Source: a virus. Taken from it: a stretch of 64,000 nucleotides of DNA. The DNA lies in the IMG/VR virus record IMGVR_UViG_3300032246_002821, positions 1-64,000 of that record; one strand, written 5' to 3'. The position numbers were made by a program, and so were the translations under genes. Positions 9,223-25,428 of the stretch are shown here, in pieces (position 1 is the stretch's first letter; each line of letters begins with the position of its first letter). The notes below the pieces were generated by a model. The model had not been told where the DNA came from. It ran no database searches and saw only the letters and a program-made list of their open reading frames with translations.

Positions 9223-9314
9223 TGTTTGATTCAAGTATTTTTATTATTGTCGCCGGAATAGTGCTTGCAGTCATTGCAGGCATTATTTTCCATTATATCA
9301 TCAACAATCACTGA
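9222..9314 (+). CDS. Tiny membrane protein, 30 aa
   Basis: Almost entirely one membrane helix (IFIIVAGIVLAVIAGIIFHY). Start overlaps the previous TGA. It ends the cluster and its 3' end overlaps the convergent hydrolase gene. Confidence 0.5.
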   Translation: MFDSSIFIIVAGIVLAVIAGIIFHYIINNH

Positions 9315-9864
9315 TAAATGCTTTTAACTGCTTGATGCAATCATCGTGTTGCATTATCTCAGCGTGGTTAGCAGCTATCTCATGAACAGCGCCAGCACTC
9401 CAGCCACGCTGACTAGTAAGACTAACAACCCCATCATTCTCATCGAACATATAAGGGTTAAAACCGCGTGTAGTGATTATATGCTGCACTGGCATAGGAT
9501 AGGCCTGGTAGTGCAAATCCATGATGAACCTGCCGTTTTTCTTCAATTCCCTAATGAAACTGCTGCGGCTCATATATTGCTGAGCCATGCTAACATCCAG
9601 ACCATCCAGTGGACTGGCGATCGTTGTAATGCTTTGCACCTGATGGTGTCCAGCTAAAAACAATGCTATCATACCGCCCATGCTGTGACCTATCACGTGG
9701 CAAGGTATTGTCACGGAGTCTATGGCGCGGTTACAGACTTGTTGAAAGTCATTTATATCTTGACTGTAGTCGAACATTTGCCAACTATGGCTCTTAATCT
9801 TGGCCCTAGCATAGTTAAAGATTGTGGGGGTGCTGAATGCACCGTGGATAGCTAATATCTTCAT
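9301..9864 (-). CDS. Alpha/beta-hydrolase (lipase/esterase-like)
   Basis: 187 residues of the alpha/beta-hydrolase fold. LAIHGAF forms the oxyanion segment, GHSMGG (near residue 60) carries the nucleophile Ser, ENDGVVSL the acid and NHAEIM the His, so the triad is complete. It lacks a signal peptide and would act in the cytoplasm unless released at lysis. It overlaps the radical SAM gene by 4 nt and is last in the curli/cyclase operon. Substrate not predictable. Confidence 0.85.
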   Translation of the reverse strand: MKILAIHGAFSTPTIFNYARAKIKSHSWQMFDYSQDINDFQQVCNRAIDSVTIPCHVIGHSMGGMIALFLAGHHQVQSITTIASPLDGLDVSMAQQYMSRSSFIRELKKNGRFIMDLHYQAYPMPVQHIITTRGFNPYMFDENDGVVSLTSQRGWSAGAVHEIAANHAEIMQHDDCIKQLKAFISDC

Positions 9865-10739
9865 TTTTTACTTCCGCAGTATATCAAACATTCTTCTCTG
9901 ATCTGCCCTGTCTCTATTTCTTGTGCTATGTCTGCATCTGTTATCTGTAAATTTTTAATGAAACAACAGGTTATCAGCTGCCCTTTGAAATTGACGTACA
10001 CACTGGGCAAGTTCAGATGCATACAATTTTCTGGATGTAATGTGTTATTCTTATTGTCTTCTATATTACTGACTTTGCCTTTGTGGCGTCCGAACTTTTC
10101 TTCCAAGGACCATGGTTTAATTTCTATAGGTTCGCCGGTCTTGTGGTGCCGGGGCACATTACGATAGCGAACATTTTTTACCAGATAAAAGTTTTTAAAT
10201 CCCATCTGTTTGCTTATTTTGTAAGCATCTTTGATCTGATGTTCATTGTGAGCAAAGGGCAGGAATTGCCATTCAGCACAACCGCCTGCATCAATGAAGG
10301 CCTGGGCATTGTCTATTATTTTATGGAAGTTAGTATTCTGTCTATAGATGGCGTGTGTGTCTGCCAGCCCATCTATACCAAAAATAATCTTGTGTTGATG
10401 ATCTTTTAATTTCACACCCAATTGGCGCCACCAATTGGTGGTTTTTAAACTGCCATTTGTGTGTATCTGTATCATCAGGTTTTTGCCCAGGACCAGATCT
10501 ATGGTATCATCTATATTTTTACTGGCGATGCAATCTCCAAAATTGCCACAGAAAAACACATTGGTTAAATTGGGTAGTTGATTTAAAACTTCTGTTAGCC
10601 GTGGGATAGGTAAATCGGCTATCTGCAGACCAGGTATCACGCCATAACCGTCATTGTTCCTGGGGCAGGCTATGCAGCTGGCATTGCATCTGCTGGTTAA
10701 TTCTATGTGTAACCATTTGACCGTGGCTAGATTGATCAT
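9861..10739 (-). CDS. Radical SAM protein with SPASM-like C-terminus
   Basis: 292 residues. The start ATG at 10739 was chosen because it overlaps the cyclase stop (ATGA); a longer upstream frame would intrude into the cyclase. The 4Fe-4S motif is CNASCIACPR near residue 17 and further Cys residues near the C-terminus (ENCMHL, ITCCF, LIYCG) fit a SPASM/twitch auxiliary cluster. Such enzymes often modify peptides or sugars. Its position between the cyclase and hydrolase makes a modification of a curli-cassette protein conceivable but unproven. Confidence 0.85.
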   Translation of the reverse strand: MINLATVKWLHIELTSRCNASCIACPRNNDGYGVIPGLQIADLPIPRLTEVLNQLPNLTNVFFCGNFGDCIASKNIDDTIDLVLGKNLMIQIHTNGSLKTTNWWRQLGVKLKDHQHKIIFGIDGLADTHAIYRQNTNFHKIIDNAQAFIDAGGCAEWQFLPFAHNEHQIKDAYKISKQMGFKNFYLVKNVRYRNVPRHHKTGEPIEIKPWSLEEKFGRHKGKVSNIEDNKNNTLHPENCMHLNLPSVYVNFKGQLITCCFIKNLQITDADIAQEIETGQIREECLIYCGSKK

Positions 10740-12820
10740 TTTGTGTTTGTGCGGAATACTCCGTCCCAATCTGCGCCAGGTGGATTCTTTATATAATCGG
10801 CACAACGTTCGATCCACATCTCATAATAATGATCCATCTGACCATTAAATGCGCCTATTAGATCCCTACTCATATTCTTAGCGACCGTGAATCTTTGTGC
10901 CTTGTATGCTTTCATCATAGTCACATGATTGATCTTATCCTGATTCCAATTGGGTTTATCAGCACCTTCAGTGTTTAGTACCGTGAAGATGTCCACGCCT
11001 TCTTTCTTGCCCTTAACCGCCAAGCAGTCCAAGGGGAGCGTGAAGAAATCCGTTTTGACATATTCGTTAGTTAGAGGACCAATGACCATAGCCACGTGAT
11101 AAGGCTTAGACTGCCCTTCGAGACGGCTTGCGAGATTAACGCTATCGCCCAAGCAAGTGTAGTCAAAACGCTGCTCACTGCCCATATTACCAACAACGAC
11201 GACCCCGGTATTAATGCCCAGACCCATACCAAAAGGAGGAATACCTTCCGCAGTGACTTCGGCATTGAACGCAGCAAGGCTGTCCAACATTTCCAAGGCC
11301 GTTCTAACGGCGTTCTTCGCGTGTTCTTTATCATCCAGCGGAGCGTTCCAGAATGCCATCTGAGCATCACCGATGTACTTGTCCAGTGTTCCTTCATTGT
11401 CGATGATTTTCCTTGTCATTGCTGTCATGTAGCGGTTCATGATCTTAGTTAATCCTTGGACGTCTTTGCCATAATGCTCACTGATGGTAGTAAAGCCACG
11501 CACGTCAGTGAACATGATGCTTAGTTCTCTGCTGTCTCCTCCCAGCCTGAGCAGGTCTGGATTCTGTTGCAGTTTTTCCACCATCTTGGGACTCAGGTAA
11601 GTGCCAAACTGTTTCTTTATCTGTTGTTTTTGTCTAAATTCTCGAACAAAATTGTTAAAAACACATTGGAAAAATACAAGACTACCAGCGACCAGAAGAT
11701 AGCTGGCATCCAGGAGATAATTTCCATTATCGAATAGGCTAATGTGTACATATATGACCCCTCCTATTAATGTAGCGTACAGAGGTAATGTGGTTTTAAT
11801 ACCAGCACGTGGTACTATCAAGACGAGCAAAATGCTCAATAAAGCCAATGCTGCTAATTCTGCTAGATCTGCCCAGGCTGGGCGACTTATAGTTGTGCCG
11901 CTAATAAGAGTCTGTAATGCCTGCGCTTGCAGATCGTGTGGATAAATTTCGCCCCGGGGAGTGCCTATGATATTACCCAAACCCTCAGCAGTTAGTCCCA
12001 CTATCACTATCTTATCTGATAGATCCAAGGTGCTTTCACGAGTGATCACATCTATGGCTTCCACACGTTCGAATTTGGTGTTCTGGCTCAACCAGATGCG
12101 ACCATTGTTGTCTGTGTTTATGGTGGGAAACTGTGGTATGCGTACCGCTTCTATGCCAGCATCGCCAGTCTTGATCTGATAACTGGGATCTCCTGTGGCC
12201 ACACGGATTATCTCGAGCGGAAAGCTGGGATATAATTCTCCAGCCAGTCTGACTATCATGGGCATACGGCGTACAACACCATCTATTTCTGGTGTTGTGG
12301 CAACTACCCCCACACCGTCCGCGGCTTTGGCCAATTCAGGAATTGGACTGACCCCGCCGCGCCAGCTGAATGTCCAGGGTGCGGGATCTGCGCCTATCTT
12401 GGCCACACCACGGCGCACAGCATCTGGTTGTTGGCTTTTGATACTGACTGCTTGGCTAATCACTACACCTTGATCCAGCACACTTGCCAAGGGATCATCA
12501 CCACCCAATCTATCTGGTTCGGCGAACAGTATGTTCATAGCGATTACGCCGGCATTGGCCTGGCGCAATCTGCCCACCAATTCAGCAAACGCATCGCGAC
12601 GTGGCGGCCACTGGCCCCAACTTTTGAGGGTTTTTTCACCTATGTCTATCAATACAATATCTTTGCTGACCTGTTGTGGCTGACTGGTCATCAGGTAATC
12701 GAAATCTTTCAATCTAAGTGTTTTAACCAGGCTGGGATCTGCATATCGCACAAACAGCAATGCTAAGGCCAAGATGATCACAGCGCCAGTGCCAGTGATC
12801 CAGTTAATGTATTTTTCCAT
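10736..12820 (-). CDS. CHASE2-domain class III adenylate cyclase
   Basis: 694 residues. One N-terminal membrane helix (residues about 8-25), an extracytoplasmic CHASE2 sensor domain (about 30-305), three membrane helices (about 307-390) and a C-terminal class III cyclase domain (about 430-640). Metal-binding Asp residues are present in FTDVRGF and YIGDAQMAFW. Lys of LDKYIGD and Asp of FDYTCLGD are the pair that selects ATP. Asn and Arg of VNLASRLE are also present. It therefore looks catalytically complete and should make cAMP. It is co-operonic with FecR and curli genes. A membrane sensor cyclase is highly unusual for a phage. Confidence 0.93.
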   Translation of the reverse strand: MEKYINWITGTGAVIILALALLFVRYADPSLVKTLRLKDFDYLMTSQPQQVSKDIVLIDIGEKTLKSWGQWPPRRDAFAELVGRLRQANAGVIAMNILFAEPDRLGGDDPLASVLDQGVVISQAVSIKSQQPDAVRRGVAKIGADPAPWTFSWRGGVSPIPELAKAADGVGVVATTPEIDGVVRRMPMIVRLAGELYPSFPLEIIRVATGDPSYQIKTGDAGIEAVRIPQFPTINTDNNGRIWLSQNTKFERVEAIDVITRESTLDLSDKIVIVGLTAEGLGNIIGTPRGEIYPHDLQAQALQTLISGTTISRPAWADLAELAALALLSILLVLIVPRAGIKTTLPLYATLIGGVIYVHISLFDNGNYLLDASYLLVAGSLVFFQCVFNNFVREFRQKQQIKKQFGTYLSPKMVEKLQQNPDLLRLGGDSRELSIMFTDVRGFTTISEHYGKDVQGLTKIMNRYMTAMTRKIIDNEGTLDKYIGDAQMAFWNAPLDDKEHAKNAVRTALEMLDSLAAFNAEVTAEGIPPFGMGLGINTGVVVVGNMGSEQRFDYTCLGDSVNLASRLEGQSKPYHVAMVIGPLTNEYVKTDFFTLPLDCLAVKGKKEGVDIFTVLNTEGADKPNWNQDKINHVTMMKAYKAQRFTVAKNMSRDLIGAFNGQMDHYYEMWIERCADYIKNPPGADWDGVFRTNTK

Positions 12821-12850
12821 ACTGATCCCCTCGATCTTTTACTTATTATA

Positions 12851-13375
12851 TCAACGTTTTGTGTAAGTGTATCCTGAGCAGGGGGGTGTCAAACACTGGA
12901 TACTCATGCTGCTGGCATCTGGTGTTAATGCATTATCCTGCAGAGCATTAGCTGTGATGCCTGAGCCGCTCAGATTAAACACAAAGCTCTTGGGTGCTGA
13001 ACCAGCTTGTTGTATCACAGCTGAGTTGTTGTTATTGCTGGTGGTCTTATCCAGATTGATGGCAGCAGTGTGGTTGCCTGATCCGGTCTGGAATATGGTC
13101 AGTATATTGTTATTGTTATTGGGAGCGATACTAGTGATAAAATTAGCTCCTGATTGTCCAGCTGGAGGTGTGCCAATGAATGCCATATGGGCACCAGTGC
13201 CTTCCTGTATGATGGCTAACTGATTGTTGTTGCCCTGATTGAGCACTATGGCTGTCTTGCTATCACTATCTTTCTGGTTGACGGTTATATTATTAAGATC
13301 TCCCACTTGGTCGATATAAACAGTATCAGCAGCATAAACTGGGGTTATAATCGCCAGTAACCATAATCGTTTCAT
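12851..13375 (-). CDS. Curlin-repeat amyloid protein (CsgA/B-like)
   Basis: 174 residues with a short Sec signal peptide (MKRLWLLAIITPVYA). Curlin-type repeats of the Q-x-G-x-x-N form follow: DQVGDLNNITV, NQGNNNQLAIIQEGTG, FQTGSGNHTAAI, QQAGSAPKSFV. The Cys-containing tail is unusual for curlins. The family is exported through CsgG and polymerises as surface amyloid. Its ATG overlaps the FecR stop (ATGA). Confidence 0.85.
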   Translation of the reverse strand: MKRLWLLAIITPVYAADTVYIDQVGDLNNITVNQKDSDSKTAIVLNQGNNNQLAIIQEGTGAHMAFIGTPPAGQSGANFITSIAPNNNNNILTIFQTGSGNHTAAINLDKTTSNNNNSAVIQQAGSAPKSFVFNLSGSGITANALQDNALTPDASSMSIQCLTPPCSGYTYTKR

Positions 13376-14493
13376 TTGCTCTGCCTTATGGTTATGGTGC
13401 TGCCACCTGGTTTATTGACCTGTTGTAGTATGGGCAAACCGTCCTGATAAATGTTTATCTGTGCGCTGCTGTCCTTGTCCACTATGACTTGAGCGAAGTG
13501 ACTGGGGGCTGCGCGATACAGGTTAAGGCTGTAGTCTTCCACATAGTATTTGAGACCTTGTACTTTGTTGGGTTTATATCTGGGCAACATGGGATCGTCC
13601 TGTTCAGCCAGCGCATTATCCAATAATCCAGCGTTCATGAGATCGATAATGTTTTCCAGGAATGAAGAATCCAGATAGTTTTGTGCCAGTTTGCCAGTTG
13701 CTTCCGCTAGCAGATCCACATTGAGTGCATCGTATCTCAATAAATCTTTATCCAGCTCATTGCGATCTAATATGTTTTTGCCAGTCTCATCGTGGGTGGC
13801 GTGTTTGGGTTTGGTCAATATCAACATATTGCTTATCTGTGCATCTGTCAGTTGCAATATGGTGGGCTTGGCAGGATTGCCTTCCCTGCTAACTGTCTGA
13901 GTGCTCTGGAACATCTTGTCCAACCACACCGTGCCCATATCTGTTGTGACACTTATTTTACCCACTTTGCAATCTTTTTCCAGGCTTTTGTAACCCACTG
14001 GGCAACTGGGCAACAGAACAATTAGGCTACGGCCCAGCTCATCCACTGTCATACTGAAGTCCGTGCCACGCACACCCACAGTAGCAGTGGGTGTTTCTAT
14101 ACTCACAGACTGTGGATTAGCTTTGGCTATTTGGCCTGATGCGAATTTGGCTGTGCCCAGGGCCATCTTGAGTCCCACTTTGCCAGCATCACCTTTGGCT
14201 GGATCATACACAAAGCTGTCTATCACAAGTTTACTCTGTTCGGTTATTTTCACAGTGCTGTTGTCTTGAAAGGTGATGCTGACTTTGCTGTTGGCTGTGA
14301 CCACAGCATCATTCTGCTCCACGCCTGAATCTTTTGCGCTGGGAATCACTTGTTTGTCGCGTTGAATTTCAGTAGGACCAGTCTGTTCTGTTACAGTACC
14401 GGCCGCCGACCAAACATCAGTTGCCTGAACGCACAGTAATGCTGTTGTTACTGCCAACGCTCTTGATATTGACTGTTGAATCCACTGTGCCAC
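13372..14493 (-). CDS. Secreted FecR-domain protein
   Basis: 373 residues with a GTG start 9-10 nt after GGAG, overlapping the end of the upstream curlin gene by 77 nt. A signal peptide (ALAVTTALLCVQATDVWSA) is followed by a FecR domain: VTANSKVSITFQDNSTVKI, KMALGTAKFASG and TPTATVGVRGTDFSM. The C-terminal end (QINIYQDGLPILQQVN) contains a curlin-like strand. Free-standing FecR proteins are often found next to CHASE2 cyclases, which fits this operon. It may act as a periplasmic ligand or nucleating partner. Confidence 0.82.
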   Translation of the reverse strand: MAQWIQQSISRALAVTTALLCVQATDVWSAAGTVTEQTGPTEIQRDKQVIPSAKDSGVEQNDAVVTANSKVSITFQDNSTVKITEQSKLVIDSFVYDPAKGDAGKVGLKMALGTAKFASGQIAKANPQSVSIETPTATVGVRGTDFSMTVDELGRSLIVLLPSCPVGYKSLEKDCKVGKISVTTDMGTVWLDKMFQSTQTVSREGNPAKPTILQLTDAQISNMLILTKPKHATHDETGKNILDRNELDKDLLRYDALNVDLLAEATGKLAQNYLDSSFLENIIDLMNAGLLDNALAEQDDPMLPRYKPNKVQGLKYYVEDYSLNLYRAAPSHFAQVIVDKDSSAQINIYQDGLPILQQVNKPGGSTITIRQSK

Positions 14494-15103
14494 TCTGAGT
14501 GACTCCTATTGTGTTGCTGCCGCCTGTTACATCTACTGTCGCATCGAATCCGTTTAAGCCAGCTGTGCCGGTTTGGCTCACAGTGATGGCATTGCCATTA
14601 CCGCCAGTGCTTGTGATACGAGCTCTTGCTCCCAGTAGATTGGTTGTTGAACTTGTTATTCCCACTGTGTTGTTATCACCAGTGGCATCCACTGTGGCTG
14701 TGCTCTTGGCGCCAGCTGTGACATTAACTGTATTGGTATTACCATTTATATTAGCTGTTATTATAGTGTCTGTACAAGCAGTTGTGGGCGCAGCACCGCA
14801 ACTGGCATTGACAGTGTTGAAACTGCCAGTGACATTGCTGGTCAGTTGAGCACCATTGCCCTGTATATTGAACACGCTGTTGTTATTACTGCCTATCTGT
14901 GTTATGCTTACCAGCTGGCTGTTGCCACGAAAGATCGTTTTATTAGTTTCGTCTCCCACCACGTTGTTGCTACCTGTCTGTGTCACATCTATCGTACTGC
15001 TACTGCCTATCTGATCGATGTATACTGTATTCTGACTTTGAGCGAACACCGGAGTGGTGGCCATTAGCGATAGTGCTAGTAACAGTTTCATAAACTGTTT
15101 CAT
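14417..15103 (-). CDS. Curlin-repeat amyloid protein (CsgA/B-like)
   Basis: 228 residues with a signal peptide (LLLALSLMATTPVFA) and about eight imperfect Gln/Asn/Gly repeats such as DQIGSSSTIDVTQTGSNN, TQIGSNNNSVFNIQGNG and SQTGTAGLNGF, the curlin signature. It lies directly downstream of csgG and is the probable main secretion substrate. Longer than E. coli CsgA (about 151 residues). Confidence 0.88.
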   Translation of the reverse strand: MKQFMKLLLALSLMATTPVFAQSQNTVYIDQIGSSSTIDVTQTGSNNVVGDETNKTIFRGNSQLVSITQIGSNNNSVFNIQGNGAQLTSNVTGSFNTVNASCGAAPTTACTDTIITANINGNTNTVNVTAGAKSTATVDATGDNNTVGITSSTTNLLGARARITSTGGNGNAITVSQTGTAGLNGFDATVDVTGGSNTIGVTQSGTVDSTVNIKSVGSNNSITVRSGN

Positions 15104-15115
15104 AGCCTAGATACC

Positions 15116-15961
15116 TCATTTTTTATCCGTCTTTCGATTCGCTGCCGCGAGTTCTTCTGCTGTAAGCGGAGCGTGTCTCCACAACCCCTTGACTATACCT
15201 TGTTTGATTAAATCCACCACTGCTGCCTCGATCGCAATTCGCACAGCGTATGTGGTGGGTTCGTTAATTGTGACACCAGCTTCAAATTCCACAGCTTTGG
15301 TGCCAGCATCGATAAATTTCATTAGATTAGCACTGGTGCCTGCTGAGTAAACAGTCTTGCTGGCTCCAGAACTTAATAATACTTCGCCAGTGTGTACACT
15401 GACCAGTCTGATGATGATGGTTACCTCATCAGTGCGATACTGAGTGTTGCCATCTATGCCCAGGAATCTGGCGCCGATACCGCCTGATCCCACATTACTA
15501 TCATAACCAATGACACCGCCCTGCAACATTATACCAGCCACCAACATGGGTGCCAGTGGTTTGGCATTTTGTCCTTCATAGGTCTCACGCTGGTTGCGGA
15601 TCAGCTGACGCTCTTTTATCAAGTCGTCCAGTCCCACACGCTCCACAGGTTTAAACCAGGTGCCAGTGCCAGCATCTTGCAGGGCTTTGATCAGGAACAC
15701 TTCTGCACCCTGGGTGACAGCACTGCTAAAAGTGCTGAATTTGTCATTAGGTTTGCGCTGGCCAGTCTTGTCAGTGAAGCTGTACACAGCTACCACTATG
15801 GGAGGACCGTCTGGCTTACGCAAACCTGGCAGTTCTGCTAATCTGGGTTTGCTGATGATTTCAGGCATATCGTTGGGTTCCACGCTGGTGGGCACTTTAC
15901 CCACCAAACTGGTGCAACCTGACAGTGCCAGCAATAATATCAGCCCTATATTCTTAATCAA
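15116..15961 (-). CDS. csgG: Curli secretion channel lipoprotein CsgG
   Basis: 281 residues, close to the 277 of E. coli CsgG. Lipoprotein signal with lipobox LSGC (Cys near residue 16). Family blocks visible include VAVYSFTDKTGQRKPN, FKPVERVGLDDLIKERQLIR, GIMLQGGVIGYDSNVGSGG and YRTDEVTIIIRLVSVHTGEVL. CsgG oligomerises as an outer-membrane pore that exports curlins. It starts at a TTG overlapping the csgF stop (TTGA). csgE is not seen. Confidence 0.95.
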   Translation of the reverse strand: MIKNIGLILLLALSGCTSLVGKVPTSVEPNDMPEIISKPRLAELPGLRKPDGPPIVVAVYSFTDKTGQRKPNDKFSTFSSAVTQGAEVFLIKALQDAGTGTWFKPVERVGLDDLIKERQLIRNQRETYEGQNAKPLAPMLVAGIMLQGGVIGYDSNVGSGGIGARFLGIDGNTQYRTDEVTIIIRLVSVHTGEVLLSSGASKTVYSAGTSANLMKFIDAGTKAVEFEAGVTINEPTTYAVRIAIEAAVVDLIKQGIVKGLWRHAPLTAEELAAANRKTDKK

Positions 15962-16404
15962 AATTTGAAACTCCCGATGGGAACACTGATCTCAGTACGG
16001 TTACCAGTGGGATCGATCAGTGTCAATTTGATCATATTAGTTGTTGCATCTTTTATCCAACTGATGTTAGTGCCTTCGAAGTCCATAGAACCAGAGGTGG
16101 CACCATCGGAAAACATAGCATTGCTCATCTGTAGACTCAGCTGGGCATAGATACGTGATTCCAGATTGTTCAAGAATTTATTTAGATTGGTGTTCTTGGC
16201 AGCAGTTGCTATGGCATCCAGTGCTGCTCGCTGTTCCTGCTTAATAGCTTGTTTGCGATTAAATTCCAGATTCTCGATAGTCAAGGCGTGACTGCTGAAT
16301 CCTTCGCCGCTGAAGCTGGGATTTTTATAGCCAAAAACCATTTCACTCGTCCACGCAGGACCAGAAATCATCAAAATTACAACAAAAGTCATAAATTTAT
16401 GCAT
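15958..16404 (-). CDS. csgF: Curli assembly protein CsgF
   Basis: 148 residues with a signal peptide (MTFVVILMISGPAWTSEM). The mature N-terminus has the CsgF pattern FGYKNPSFSGEG, the segment that inserts into the CsgG pore in E. coli. A C-terminal strand region ends in VPIGSFKF. First gene of the curli operon, 14 nt downstream of a GATAAATA late-type promoter. Confidence 0.92.
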   Translation of the reverse strand: MHKFMTFVVILMISGPAWTSEMVFGYKNPSFSGEGFSSHALTIENLEFNRKQAIKQEQRAALDAIATAAKNTNLNKFLNNLESRIYAQLSLQMSNAMFSDGATSGSMDFEGTNISWIKDATTNMIKLTLIDPTGNRTEISVPIGSFKF

Positions 16405-16418
16405 AAAACTCTCCAGAA

Positions 16419-16426
16419 GTATTTAT
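16419..16426 (-). promoter_or_regulatory. T4-like late promoter (GATAAATA) of the curli operon
   Basis: GATAAATA on the minus strand 14 nt before the csgF ATG, without a recognisable -35. It implies late expression of the whole csgF-to-hydrolase operon. Confidence 0.55.
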
Positions 16427-16466
16427 CTATAGCGCATTTTGATTATGTTTGCATAGTAAATAACCT

Positions 16467-17609
16467 ATGTGGAAAATCTCTTGCCAATATCCCAACTGGT
16501 GTTTCGTAGCCTACGATCAAGAAAAATTATGGGAGATAGGCTACGTCATGAGTTTCTTAGACAGTGTGGACAAGAAGAACCTATACCTGTTTTTCATAGA
16601 TCAAAATAGCTTCTATTCAGCAGACTTTCCCTGGGATATCTTATCAGACAGACTGGCATACGCGAAGGAAAATTCCTTGCATTTCAAAATCATATATCTC
16701 AATATAGGGGAAGCACCTTGTTATCGTTTCGATCTGAAACAATTATGTGATGAGATAAATGATAAAAATATAGTGCCCTATGATGACCAGATACTGTTCA
16801 GCGCCGGTATAAGATATTTCGACGATCCCATTAGAGTAGCCACCAGTTATAATATTGCTTTAAGAAAACAGATCTGGTCGGGCTATGATCACACTCAACC
16901 ACCCACTCATCATTTCATAAGTCTGTGTAGGATTCTACGAAAGCAAAGAGCTGTAGCTAGTGTGGAAATACTGGACAGGGATCTTTTGAAATATGGATAC
17001 ATGAGCGTGGGCAGTGCCTATGCCAGTGTCGACGATCCTGGGCTGTCTTATTGCAGGGATAATTTCGAATTTATACCAGACAGGTACAAACACCTTATGC
17101 CAATGTATCTGGACGGTTATATAGGAGACGGTGTGCCTGCCGCCAGCATCTGTTATCTAAGCCAGAACGATCCCAGGGTATGCAGTGCGTTCGTACACGT
17201 GGTCATGGAGACCAGTTACGATTTTCCTTATGCCCAACAAGGGGGTGCCTGGTTGGTGCCCCTGTTAAGCGAAAAGACTTTCAAACCATTGGTATTCGGC
17301 CAGATACCATTATTCTTGTGCCATAAAGATCAGCTGAAATACCTGAGAGAGATGGGTTTCGATCTGTTCGATGATGTCATAGATCACAGCTATGATCACG
17401 AACCCGATCCTGCCTTGCGTATAATTAAAGTTGTGGATCAATTGGAAAAAATCTGTCGTGACTGGACTCTGGAACAGATGCAACGATATAAAAAAGATAA
17501 CATCGGTCGTTTCACGAATAACAGGAACCGTTTCATAGAAATACTGGCGCTGGAACCTGATCTAATAGGCAAGCCCAGCTTTATTAAAGCCCTCAATAAT
17601 TCTCGATGA
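16467..17609 (+). CDS. Putative glycosyltransferase-like protein
   Basis: 380 residues, no membrane segment. The C-terminal half has LLSEKTFKPLVFGQIPLFLC, then YLREMGFDLFDDVIDHSYD, a pattern seen in viral and phage proteins related to nucleotide-sugar transferases of the exostosin/fucosyltransferase type, where SEKT/K binds the donor. Divergent from the curli operon and convergent with the oxygenase gene, whose end it overlaps. Donor and acceptor cannot be named. Confidence 0.6.
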   Translation: MWKISCQYPNWCFVAYDQEKLWEIGYVMSFLDSVDKKNLYLFFIDQNSFYSADFPWDILSDRLAYAKENSLHFKIIYLNIGEAPCYRFDLKQLCDEINDKNIVPYDDQILFSAGIRYFDDPIRVATSYNIALRKQIWSGYDHTQPPTHHFISLCRILRKQRAVASVEILDRDLLKYGYMSVGSAYASVDDPGLSYCRDNFEFIPDRYKHLMPMYLDGYIGDGVPAASICYLSQNDPRVCSAFVHVVMETSYDFPYAQQGGAWLVPLLSEKTFKPLVFGQIPLFLCHKDQLKYLREMGFDLFDDVIDHSYDHEPDPALRIIKVVDQLEKICRDWTLEQMQRYKKDNIGRFTNNRNRFIEILALEPDLIGKPSFIKALNNSR

Positions 17610-18234
17610 AAGGTTGATCTGACATATCCTGATACACATACCTGTCGAAAGGATCAGCCGTGGTCTGTCCCACGGGCATACTATTGAAACCCAATATGAT
17701 GCGATTTTCATTGGTACCGTTGGGATCGGTCTGGTGTTCCAACCAAGCAGGAAATATCACCAGGGTACCAGGCACGAATTCAGTGGAATGCCTGTGTGCT
17801 ATCAACATATTCCTGCCAGGCAATCTGGCAGGAACGATAATGTGGCTGGCTGCTGCCGGACTGTAGAATGTAGTACCACGTGTACCAGCTGCACCACTGA
17901 GATAATACACCCCAGCTAGGAAAGTGTTGCCGTGGATATGACGATGATGTCTGCCACCAGGTGGCTGTAGTGTGCTCCACAGACTGGTTATCTGGCATTT
18001 GGGTTGGTAACCCATCTGGCTCATGACCCATTCTGTTTGCAACTGGACGAATTCGGCAAAGCTCTTGAACAATGGTTCGTTGTGCAGTGTGGCTTTGCCG
18101 AATTTGATATGTGGTAAATCACGACCCCAATTGGCACTGTCGCTAGCATATTCTATGTACTGTTGTTTCAATTCATCGTGTTGGGGAAAATTGAATGTCC
18201 AGATAGGAATAGTGAAAGCATTAATCTGTGCCAT
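17593..18234 (-). CDS. 2OG-Fe(II) oxygenase
   Basis: 213 residues, the short phage oxygenase family. Facial-triad candidates are the first His of HRHIHGN (near residue 97) with HxH in place of HxD, and His of AWLEHQT; Arg of ENRIILGFN would bind 2-oxoglutarate. Such enzymes are common in T4-like cyanophages and may hydroxylate proteins or nucleotides. It lies 9 nt after the next gene in the sugar cluster. Confidence 0.82.
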   Translation of the reverse strand: MAQINAFTIPIWTFNFPQHDELKQQYIEYASDSANWGRDLPHIKFGKATLHNEPLFKSFAEFVQLQTEWVMSQMGYQPKCQITSLWSTLQPPGGRHHRHIHGNTFLAGVYYLSGAAGTRGTTFYSPAAASHIIVPARLPGRNMLIAHRHSTEFVPGTLVIFPAWLEHQTDPNGTNENRIILGFNSMPVGQTTADPFDRYVYQDMSDQPFIENY

Positions 18235-23321: not shown

Positions 23322-23971
23322 CCGAAATATTGCGGATGGATCATTTGGATAGAGAGCATTTCTGTACCATTCAAATAGGTTTTGATGTGGGGTATGATAT
23401 TTTCCGCTAGGATCCTATGACCATTGGGAGTGAAATGATTGGATCTGCTGTCCTGCATATTTTTACCCCAATCGGGCCAGTCTGCTTTACTGCAACTTGA
23501 CAGTCCCATATCGCTTACCAACCACAATCCATAAGTTTTGTTCACATAAGTGCTATTGAATGCAGGCATATTGATCAATTTGATCTGTCTTTCCCTGCAC
23601 TTGTTTTGTATGTCATCTATCAATAATTTGTACATATTGAAACTGAAAATTTCATCATACAAATGTTCATAATACATCTTGGCCGCTGATATGATTTCTG
23701 ATCTAACAGTATTGTCGAAAGTGAAATTTTCTATATGTGGATTTATAGCAACTGTGGGATGATACAGTCTGCTATGTTCCGTATGAACTATCAGTACCAC
23801 ATCAGGTTCTCTATTCAAAACACGATGGAAGTTTTCCCATATTTTGTACTGGCTCTGTCCGCTGAAACCCTGATGGCTTATAAGATGCAATCCACATTCT
23901 GTTACCATGGTTTCCAGATATGTGTTTTTATAGTCCCGTACGAAGCTGTCCCCCATTATTGCTATGAACAT
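23318..23971 (-). CDS. SGNH/GDSL-hydrolase-like protein
   Basis: 217 residues. The N-terminal MGDSF block carries the candidate nucleophile Ser; the C-terminal SNHFTPNGHRILAENI resembles the block V His region of SGNH hydrolases. Related to the two proteins at 25425-26728, which share the GDSF start and general length. Such proteins act as carbohydrate O-acyl transferases or esterases. TGATG overlap with the carbamoyltransferase. Confidence 0.7.
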   Translation of the reverse strand: MFIAIMGDSFVRDYKNTYLETMVTECGLHLISHQGFSGQSQYKIWENFHRVLNREPDVVLIVHTEHSRLYHPTVAINPHIENFTFDNTVRSEIISAAKMYYEHLYDEIFSFNMYKLLIDDIQNKCRERQIKLINMPAFNSTYVNKTYGLWLVSDMGLSSCSKADWPDWGKNMQDSRSNHFTPNGHRILAENIIPHIKTYLNGTEMLSIQMIHPQYFG

Positions 23972-25428
23972 CAGAAAACCCTTATGTCGTGTAATTCACT
24001 GAACCGCCTGGCATCAGACATATCATTAACTAGTGGTTCGCCTCGTATATTTAGACTTGTGTTTAGCAACATAGCACAACCAGTACGTGCTTGCCAGGCT
24101 TCCAGTATAGCCCGTATGATACCTGGATTGTTATGATGCACAGTTTGCACTCTGCTGGTGCCATCCACGTGACATATAGCCGGATATGTGTCAGGCTCCA
24201 GGCATTTTACCGTATATTGCATGAAATCATATCTGTCATCCGTGACATCGAAATGGAACCTGGCGTGTTCGGCCAGCACCACTGGTGCGAATGGTCTGAA
24301 CTTCTGTCTTTGTTTGATGGTATTGACACGATCTTTCACATCTGGCCCACGTGGGTCGGCCAGTATACTGCGATTTCCCAGAGCACGGGGGCCGAACTCA
24401 GCCCTGCCATTTGCTATGCCTATCACTTGCCCTGATTCCAGAGCATCCACAACTGTTGTGATATCAACATTACCACAGATATCATGTCCCAGATAGACGT
24501 GATCTAATCTTTGCTGACGCCTGGTCTTGTATAAGACCGCGCCCATACTGAGCCCAGCATCGCCTGGATTGGCTGGCACATACATCCGTTTATACACGCC
24601 TGATTTTAGGATTTCACTATTAGCTACGCAATTAAGAGCACACCCCCCACTGATGATCAGGTTGTCACTGGGCAGCAGCTTACGTGCATAGGATACCAGA
24701 CCTTGCATATATTCCTGGAATATCTGTTGAGCACTGGCGGCTATGTCTTCCGCTCGCCAGCCCCGGTGCTCTAGCAAGGATTTAATGCCACGATGGATGT
24801 TATATCGCATAGGGCAGCGAGGCGGTGTCCAATCGCTGAACAACATCTGTTTCAACTCCACCGCGTGTACAGGCTCGCCATAGGCAGCCATACCCATAGT
24901 GATGTATTCTTCTTCGTTGGGTTTGAGTCCAATGGCTTGTGTTATGGCGGTGTAAAATAATCCCATGCTATCTGGATAACTCTGATGCCACTTGCAGTAT
25001 AACTCAGCGCCACATCCGTACCAAATGCTGGTAGTTTTCCATTCTCCTATGGCATCTACCACGATTATTGCAGCGTTAGTGTAGCCGCTGGTATAATAAC
25101 CCAACGCCGCGTGAGCACCGTGATGCGGCACTGTTTCAAATTTCAAATCGTCCAGACCGAATTGCCTTAGATGTGCGACAGGATCCTGAAACACTGGCCG
25201 TTCGCCGCTGTATAGTCTGCGTAGTGCTTTAGTCCAGGGATTCTCGAACCACAATATTTTATCAGGTTTGCCATATCTGGCCATATCTGCCAGCATATGT
25301 TCGTTGAGCAAATTGTCACTTTTTTTCCTGCTGTATCTTTCGCTATGAGCAGCAAATAAAACTTCTTGTTCAGTGGCCAAACACACACTTGCGTCGTGAT
25401 TTAACGCATTTATACCCAGGTATTTCAT
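23971..25428 (-). CDS. Carbamoyltransferase, NodU/CmcH family
   Basis: 485 residues. N-terminal Kae1-like domain: LGINALNHDASVCL, HHGAHAALGYYTSGY (metal-binding His residues), IISGGCALNCVANS. C-terminal domain: FGPRALGNRSILADPR, RPFAPVVL, HVDGTSRVQTV, LLNTSLNIRGEPLV. The family transfers a carbamoyl group from carbamoyl phosphate via carbamoyl-AMP to a hydroxyl, as on Nod factors or antibiotic sugars. All blocks are present. Embedded between SGNH-like genes downstream of a fibre gene, so a glycan on fibre or host surface is a likely target. Confidence 0.93.
   Translation of the reverse strand: MKYLGINALNHDASVCLATEQEVLFAAHSERYSRKKSDNLLNEHMLADMARYGKPDKILWFENPWTKALRRLYSGERPVFQDPVAHLRQFGLDDLKFETVPHHGAHAALGYYTSGYTNAAIIVVDAIGEWKTTSIWYGCGAELYCKWHQSYPDSMGLFYTAITQAIGLKPNEEEYITMGMAAYGEPVHAVELKQMLFSDWTPPRCPMRYNIHRGIKSLLEHRGWRAEDIAASAQQIFQEYMQGLVSYARKLLPSDNLIISGGCALNCVANSEILKSGVYKRMYVPANPGDAGLSMGAVLYKTRRQQRLDHVYLGHDICGNVDITTVVDALESGQVIGIANGRAEFGPRALGNRSILADPRGPDVKDRVNTIKQRQKFRPFAPVVLAEHARFHFDVTDDRYDFMQYTVKCLEPDTYPAICHVDGTSRVQTVHHNNPGIIRAILEAWQARTGCAMLLNTSLNIRGEPLVNDMSDARRFSELHDIRVF

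Follow-up and report, generated by a model that had tools for sequence, protein, structure and literature searches.

A curli-secretion and FecR-CHASE2 cyclase module in a phage with a PA5oct/Atu_ph07-like terminase, and a candidate sensing role for FecR

The window analysed here is a stretch of 64,000 nucleotides, positions 1 to 64,000 of the 182,953 bp IMG/VR virus contig IMGVR_UViG_3300032246_002821, a record in which a terminase gene was found. Eight minus-strand open reading frames lie at window positions 9301-16404, at the coordinates given earlier. They encode, in this order, CsgF, CsgG, a first curlin-repeat protein (Cur1), a FecR-domain protein, a second curlin-repeat protein (Cur2), a CHASE2 class III cyclase, a radical SAM protein and an alpha/beta hydrolase (Table 1). 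The identities assigned in the original prediction are borne out by family support for each of the eight (Pfam, PHROG, NCBIfam), the radical SAM protein and Cur2 being the weakest supported.

Table 1 Features of the curli and FecR-cyclase locus in the window.
Feature	Position	Strand	Evidence
T4-late-type promoter-like GATAAATAC	16419-16427	-	23 nt ahead of csgF
CsgF, secreted partner of the CsgG pore	15958-16404	-	Pfam CsgF 6.8e-14
CsgG outer-membrane secretion lipoprotein, lipobox LSGC	15116-15961	-	Pfam 2.8e-51
Cur1, curlin-repeat protein 1, secreted, predicted beta-solenoid	14417-15103	-	Pfam Curlin_rpt 2.8e-9
FecR-domain protein, signal peptide and putative curlin-like C-terminal tail (last ~60 residues)	13372-14493	-	Pfam FecR 1.6e-11
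Cur2, curlin-repeat protein 2	12851-13375	-	Pfam Curlin_rpt 3.3e-4, barely above cut-off
CHASE2 transmembrane class III adenylate cyclase (predicted)	10736-12820	-	CHASE2 3.9e-45; Guanylate_cyc 1.8e-19
Radical SAM protein	9861-10739	-	PHROG radical SAM 1.2e-24; distant NCBIfam match 4e-12
Alpha/beta hydrolase	9301-9864	-	Pfam hydrolase families ~5e-6

Four of the seven gene junctions (CsgF/CsgG, FecR/Cur2, cyclase/radical SAM and radical SAM/hydrolase) are 4-nt ATGA/TTGA overlaps, the radical SAM ATG at 10739 overlapping the cyclase stop. The CsgG/Cur1 and Cur2/cyclase junctions are gaps of 12 and 30 nt, respectively. FecR overlaps Cur1 by 77 nt; its GTG start lies inside the Cur1 end and its signal peptide is encoded within the overlap. 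The predicted late-type promoter is supported both by GATAAATAC upstream of csgF and by an enrichment of ATAAATA near csgF among relatives, where it occurs in 16 of 49 viral loci compared with 1.9% of random 100-bp stretches. The gp23 and sheath Pfam models gave 0 matches to the record, which is uninformative, and at the nucleotide level the module matched no phage record.

The elements of type VIII (curli) secretion are present. CsgG carries a lipobox and matches solved CsgG at 8e-51 across residues 7-262. In E. coli, the CsgF docking peptide docks into CsgG, as seen in CsgG-CsgF structures. The phage CsgF contains the corresponding N-terminal CsgG-docking motif, FGYKNPSFSG, and its N-terminus aligns with E. 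coli CsgF of 6l7a, at a weak score (E 0.065). The motif is kept in 52/52 phage CsgFs, those of Melnitz and HTVC008M included, a pattern of residues that speaks against loss of the CsgF-CsgG pairing in phages. Curlin-repeat substrates are found as well, with weak support for Cur2, whose residues 18-62 match the NCBIfam CsgB-like family (6.8e-6). The AlphaFold2 model of Cur1 (pLDDT 85, pTM 0.80) shows short strands arranged in a ladder; Foldseek of this model in the PDB returned weak beta-helix matches, none <1e-3. The reported lack of csgE holds: CsgE was found neither in this record nor in 13 other phage records by a search that detected it in two bacterial genomes.

A viral scan with the cyclase as query yielded 80 loci, from which profiles were built. 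The whole six-gene module is present in 52 viral loci, counting HTVC008M, Melnitz and the window; the loci were picked by cyclase, and the frequency of cyclase-free curli genes lies outside these counts. In 49 of the complete loci the genes run CsgF-CsgG-Cur1-FecR-(Cur2)-cyclase along a single strand (Cur2 is lacking in 14), and the remaining three (L074, L075 and L077) have the cyclase on the strand opposite to the curli genes. With median dN/dS values of 0.07-0.15, all six genes are under purifying selection. The window has the pelagiphage-type T8SS-FecR-cyclase arrangement, with the gene order on one strand and CsgE absent. CsgF, CsgG, Cur1, FecR, Cur2 and the cyclase almost certainly constitute a phage curli-secretion and FecR-cyclase unit.

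The eight-gene operon originally proposed is upheld for these six conserved genes, while the radical SAM and hydrolase genes lack conserved linkage. Both were rejected as module members: the radical SAM gene occurs in 0 module relatives, its three relatives sitting in module-free loci, and hydrolase relatives are present in just 2 module loci (L010 and L075). The two genes are local additions to the module. The radical SAM Pfam score, 0.014, is below the cut-off. A second radical SAM protein is encoded by the same phage (window 34674-35693, minus strand). A 2OG-Fe(II) oxygenase gene lies close to csgF (17593-18234, minus strand) and a Nol-like carbamoyltransferase gene further along the window (23971-25428, minus strand); genes of these two kinds also lie beside the HTVC008M curli module.

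The claim that no phage couples csgG and csgF to curlins, FecR and a sensor cyclase proved wrong. In a gene-order check of phage genomes, Pelagibacter phage HTVC008M (gp014-gp019) and Methylophilales phage Melnitz (gp99-104) have the same order as the window, and both lack CsgE. A CsgF-CsgG-curlin-FecR-curlin-cyclase module was described in 2022 in Pelagibacter myo- and podophages, together with the suggestion that it is transferred between phage families (PMC9599517); csgF and csgG were also reported in PMC7029224 and PMC9004378. The window differs from the two isolates in that CsgG, FecR and the cyclase are only 36-48% identical, and from the pelagiphage module in its PA5oct/Atu_ph07-like terminase and in the radical SAM and hydrolase genes added downstream. 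The kind of module is thus already described, and the window is a further member in a different phage lineage. Full-length FecR and cyclase matches in the phage collection are limited to HTVC008M and Melnitz, and CsgG matches to these two and one 1.5-kb Salmonella phage record. The latter (OR851715.1, Salmonella phage S.Kent 1-2-1, 1,499 bp) is unannotated, encodes CsgG and is probably host DNA deposited as phage.

An ungated CsgG pore could serve uptake of large nutrients, as proposed for pelagiphages (PMC9599517), or controlled leakage and lysis timing, in line with the pinholin-like role proposed for Melnitz (PMC9004378), and the absence of CsgE fits such a function. However, a bare pore needs neither two curlins under purifying selection nor a conserved CsgF docking motif. 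Moreover, PMC9004378 states that curlin genes are missing in Melnitz, contrary to its GenBank record, which annotates two curlin-repeat proteins (L082:12845-13564 and 14623-15639). We regard the ungated pore as quite improbable. Alternatively, curli fibres could be the whole purpose, an amyloid coat aggregating siblings or blocking superinfection while the FecR-cyclase pair merely tunes expression. The minimal set for fibres is complete (CsgF, CsgG and two curlins), and both sibling capture and defence against superinfection have been proposed (PMC7029224, PMC9599517), but no clumping was seen with Melnitz cultures (PMC9004378), and this reading explains neither the curlin-like FecR tail nor why a CHASE2 cyclase is so strictly linked. 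This makes the fibre-only purpose unlikely, if still a serious candidate.

The carrier is by its terminase neither a pelagimyophage nor an HTVC023P-type podophage, an assignment separate from that of the module. The window terminase is 54% identical to that of Pseudomonas phage PA5oct and ~50% to those of Sinorhizobium phage Phosso and Agrobacterium phage Atu_ph07. Among module-bearing contigs, it is 63% identical to G016 (locus L075) and 53% to G013 (L069). Identity is 32-37% to HTVC008M, Melnitz and the remaining module carriers whose terminase matches over its full length, and 38% to one fragment among the pelagimyophage-like records. In the terminase tree, the window, L075 and L069 group together (100/100). 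In the concatenated module tree, the neighbours of the window are instead pelagimyophage-like contigs, among them L006, L049 and L004 (94/97); a single clade of the window, L075 and L069 is rejected for the module by the AU test (p 0.021). The conflict between a PA5oct/Atu_ph07-like terminase and a pelagimyophage-like module indicates that the module most likely moved between phage lineages.

The cyclase was predicted to be catalytically complete, and the metal-binding Asp pair, Lys, Asn and Arg are indeed all present. D439, K481, D485 and R566 are kept in 83/83 phage cyclases and N562 in 82/83. The K481/T555 pattern presumably denotes the adenylate type. The Melnitz cyclase (L082, MZ577097.1) has N562 replaced by Ser and T555 by Asp, unlike nearly all relatives, and may on these substitutions be altered or inactive. 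A phage-encoded cAMP effector was rejected, as no protein with a cNMP-binding domain was found in 12 phage records; this absence points to an output via the host, or via a phage protein of another kind. Small proteins of 121-128 residues, whose resemblance to the phage cyclases is confined to the cyclase C-terminal tail (ending near DWDG), are encoded at L074:17938-18303 (minus strand), L075:4029-4415 (plus strand) and L077:15009-15395 (minus strand); those of L074 and L077 sit just upstream of csgF.

The FecR protein consists of an N-terminal signal peptide followed by the FecR domain, and an N-terminal anti-sigma domain is absent. This layout rules out a FecIR-type FecR anti-sigma regulator, which is a single-pass protein with a cytoplasmic anti-sigma domain. 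No solved structure matches FecR by sequence. In the AlphaFold2 model, the FecR domain (residues 30-205) is followed by a poorly modelled linker and then by six short strands (314-370), with pLDDT of ~85-89 that drops to 64-73 over the last dozen residues. Foldseek of the model returned the FecR-type anti-sigma signalling domains 4m0h and 6ovk, with the cell-surface-signalling domain of PupR among the matches, as well as a surface-anchoring domain, 5ix9 (E 0.011).

The six strands of the modelled tail are ~7 residues each, with curlin-like spacing. The C-terminal motif of phage FecR proteins is conserved (e.g. TITIKQ), Q371 being invariant in 38 aligned sequences, and an h-x-h-x-Q ending is found in 58/63 phage FecR proteins against 4/898 other ORFs. 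Compared with curlin profiles, the tail profile gave E-values of 0.002 and 0.0009, against 0.19 or worse for control FecR segments, and a score of 22.2 against 14.2 for the best among 30 column shuffles. The hhalign probabilities are only 14-24%, and Pfam Curlin_rpt does not match the FecR tails, the likeness lying below its threshold. Together, the data are suggestive, not conclusive, of a curlin-like tail in phage FecR proteins. The tail does not appear in the main-text description of the pelagiphage module in PMC9599517, and is new relative to it.

The two halves of the module have separate bacterial relatives. Bacterial csg operons encode homologous CsgG, CsgF and curlin repeats, and the docking motif of phage CsgF is similar to the E. 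coli one; the phage module differs from them in having no CsgE, and FecR and cyclase genes are missing from all 39 bacterial csgFG loci (~10 kb on each side where the contig allows). These loci comprise 33 from a phylum-wide draw and 6 alphaproteobacterial ones, and the same profiles detect CsgG in 39/39. FecR-CHASE2 cyclase clusters are known from Campylobacterota (PMC9239204), and the 80 closest bacterial cyclases found here are at most 39% identical and mostly alphaproteobacterial. A FecR gene is present in the fetched flank of 38/80 of these loci; in 24/80 it is co-directional with the cyclase and no more than 400 bp upstream of it. In such pairs FecR directly precedes a full-length homologous cyclase, as in the phages, but is mostly longer, has C-termini that differ from the phage tail, and has no curli genes nearby. 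It is often a giant adhesin-like protein, frequently of 500-3000 residues, with RTX repeats in at least one case. The FecR genes best matching the phage profile among the bacterial cyclase loci (L104, L131, L142, L156 and L143) are on the strand opposite to the cyclase, directly beside it in L143 and some kilobases off in the other four.

Curli genes are absent from the 80 bacterial cyclase loci and from 20 wider bacterial FecR loci, so that none of the 80 cyclase, 39 csgFG and 20 FecR loci offers a bacterial forerunner of the complete six-gene module. In this sample the combination of curli genes with a FecR-cyclase pair is phage-specific, in agreement with PMC9599517. Host DNA misassembled into the viral contig, a danger raised in the original prediction, or a non-functional passenger, has one argument in its favour, the usual occurrence of curli genes in bacteria. 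The 49 same-order viral loci, the two isolates, dN/dS of ~0.1 and the occurrence of the order in 0/39 bacterial csgFG loci exclude a misassembled host fragment, and leave this explanation as a whole with a vanishingly small probability.

The FecR protein could also be a secreted fibre subunit or cap, a CsgB-like nucleator or anchor whose tail templates curlins, with the cyclase answering another input. The curlin-like tail and the match of the FecR model to a surface-anchoring domain are consistent with this role. On the other hand, FecR directly before the cyclase in many curli-free bacterial loci argues that the FecR-cyclase relation is older than the curlins, and we find the structural role improbable.

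We tentatively favour, at somewhat less than even confidence, a phage-adapted six-gene curli secretion module joined to a bacterial FecR-CHASE2 pair, in which FecR relays the curlin or pore state to the cyclase. Late in infection, CsgG as outer-membrane pore and the barrel-docked CsgF would export two beta-solenoid curlins, which may form fibres, with no CsgE gate. The FecR protein would be exported to the periplasm or surface, where its tail would contact curlins or the loaded pore. The FecR domain would then signal this state to the inner-membrane cyclase through the periplasmic CHASE2 domain of the latter, and the cAMP made by the cyclase would act through a host cAMP receptor to some benefit of the phage. 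FecR is probably the input of the cyclase; that curlin or pore state is what it senses is possible but uncertain. In Sinorhizobium meliloti, the outer-membrane beta-barrel protein NsrA feeds CHASE2 cyclases (PMC13001267), but NsrA is a protein other than CsgG and takes a plant protein as its signal. The opposite-strand cyclases of L074, L075 and L077, the sub-threshold score and low hhalign probabilities of the tail, the lack of a cNMP-binding protein in the 12 phage records and the lack of clumping with Melnitz all count against the favoured model.

Marine virology has yet to settle what phage-encoded curli are for, and amyloid release and cAMP signalling, both put forward originally, are plausible as putative roles. 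The presence of the module in a PA5oct/Atu_ph07-like phage indicates that it travels as a unit outside the pelagiphages. The FecR-cyclase pairing on bacterial chromosomes and the curlin-like FecR tail allow what were listed as separate auxiliary genes to be treated as a single circuit open to testing. In its full form, which we consider doubtful, FecR would be a secretion sensor through which the CHASE2 cyclase responds to the condition of the curli pore or fibre. The resulting trans-envelope circuit, built by the phage, would signal amyloid export in the form of cAMP; it would have been rewired from a bacterial adhesin-FecR-cyclase pair and have spread as a unit across unrelated phage lineages.
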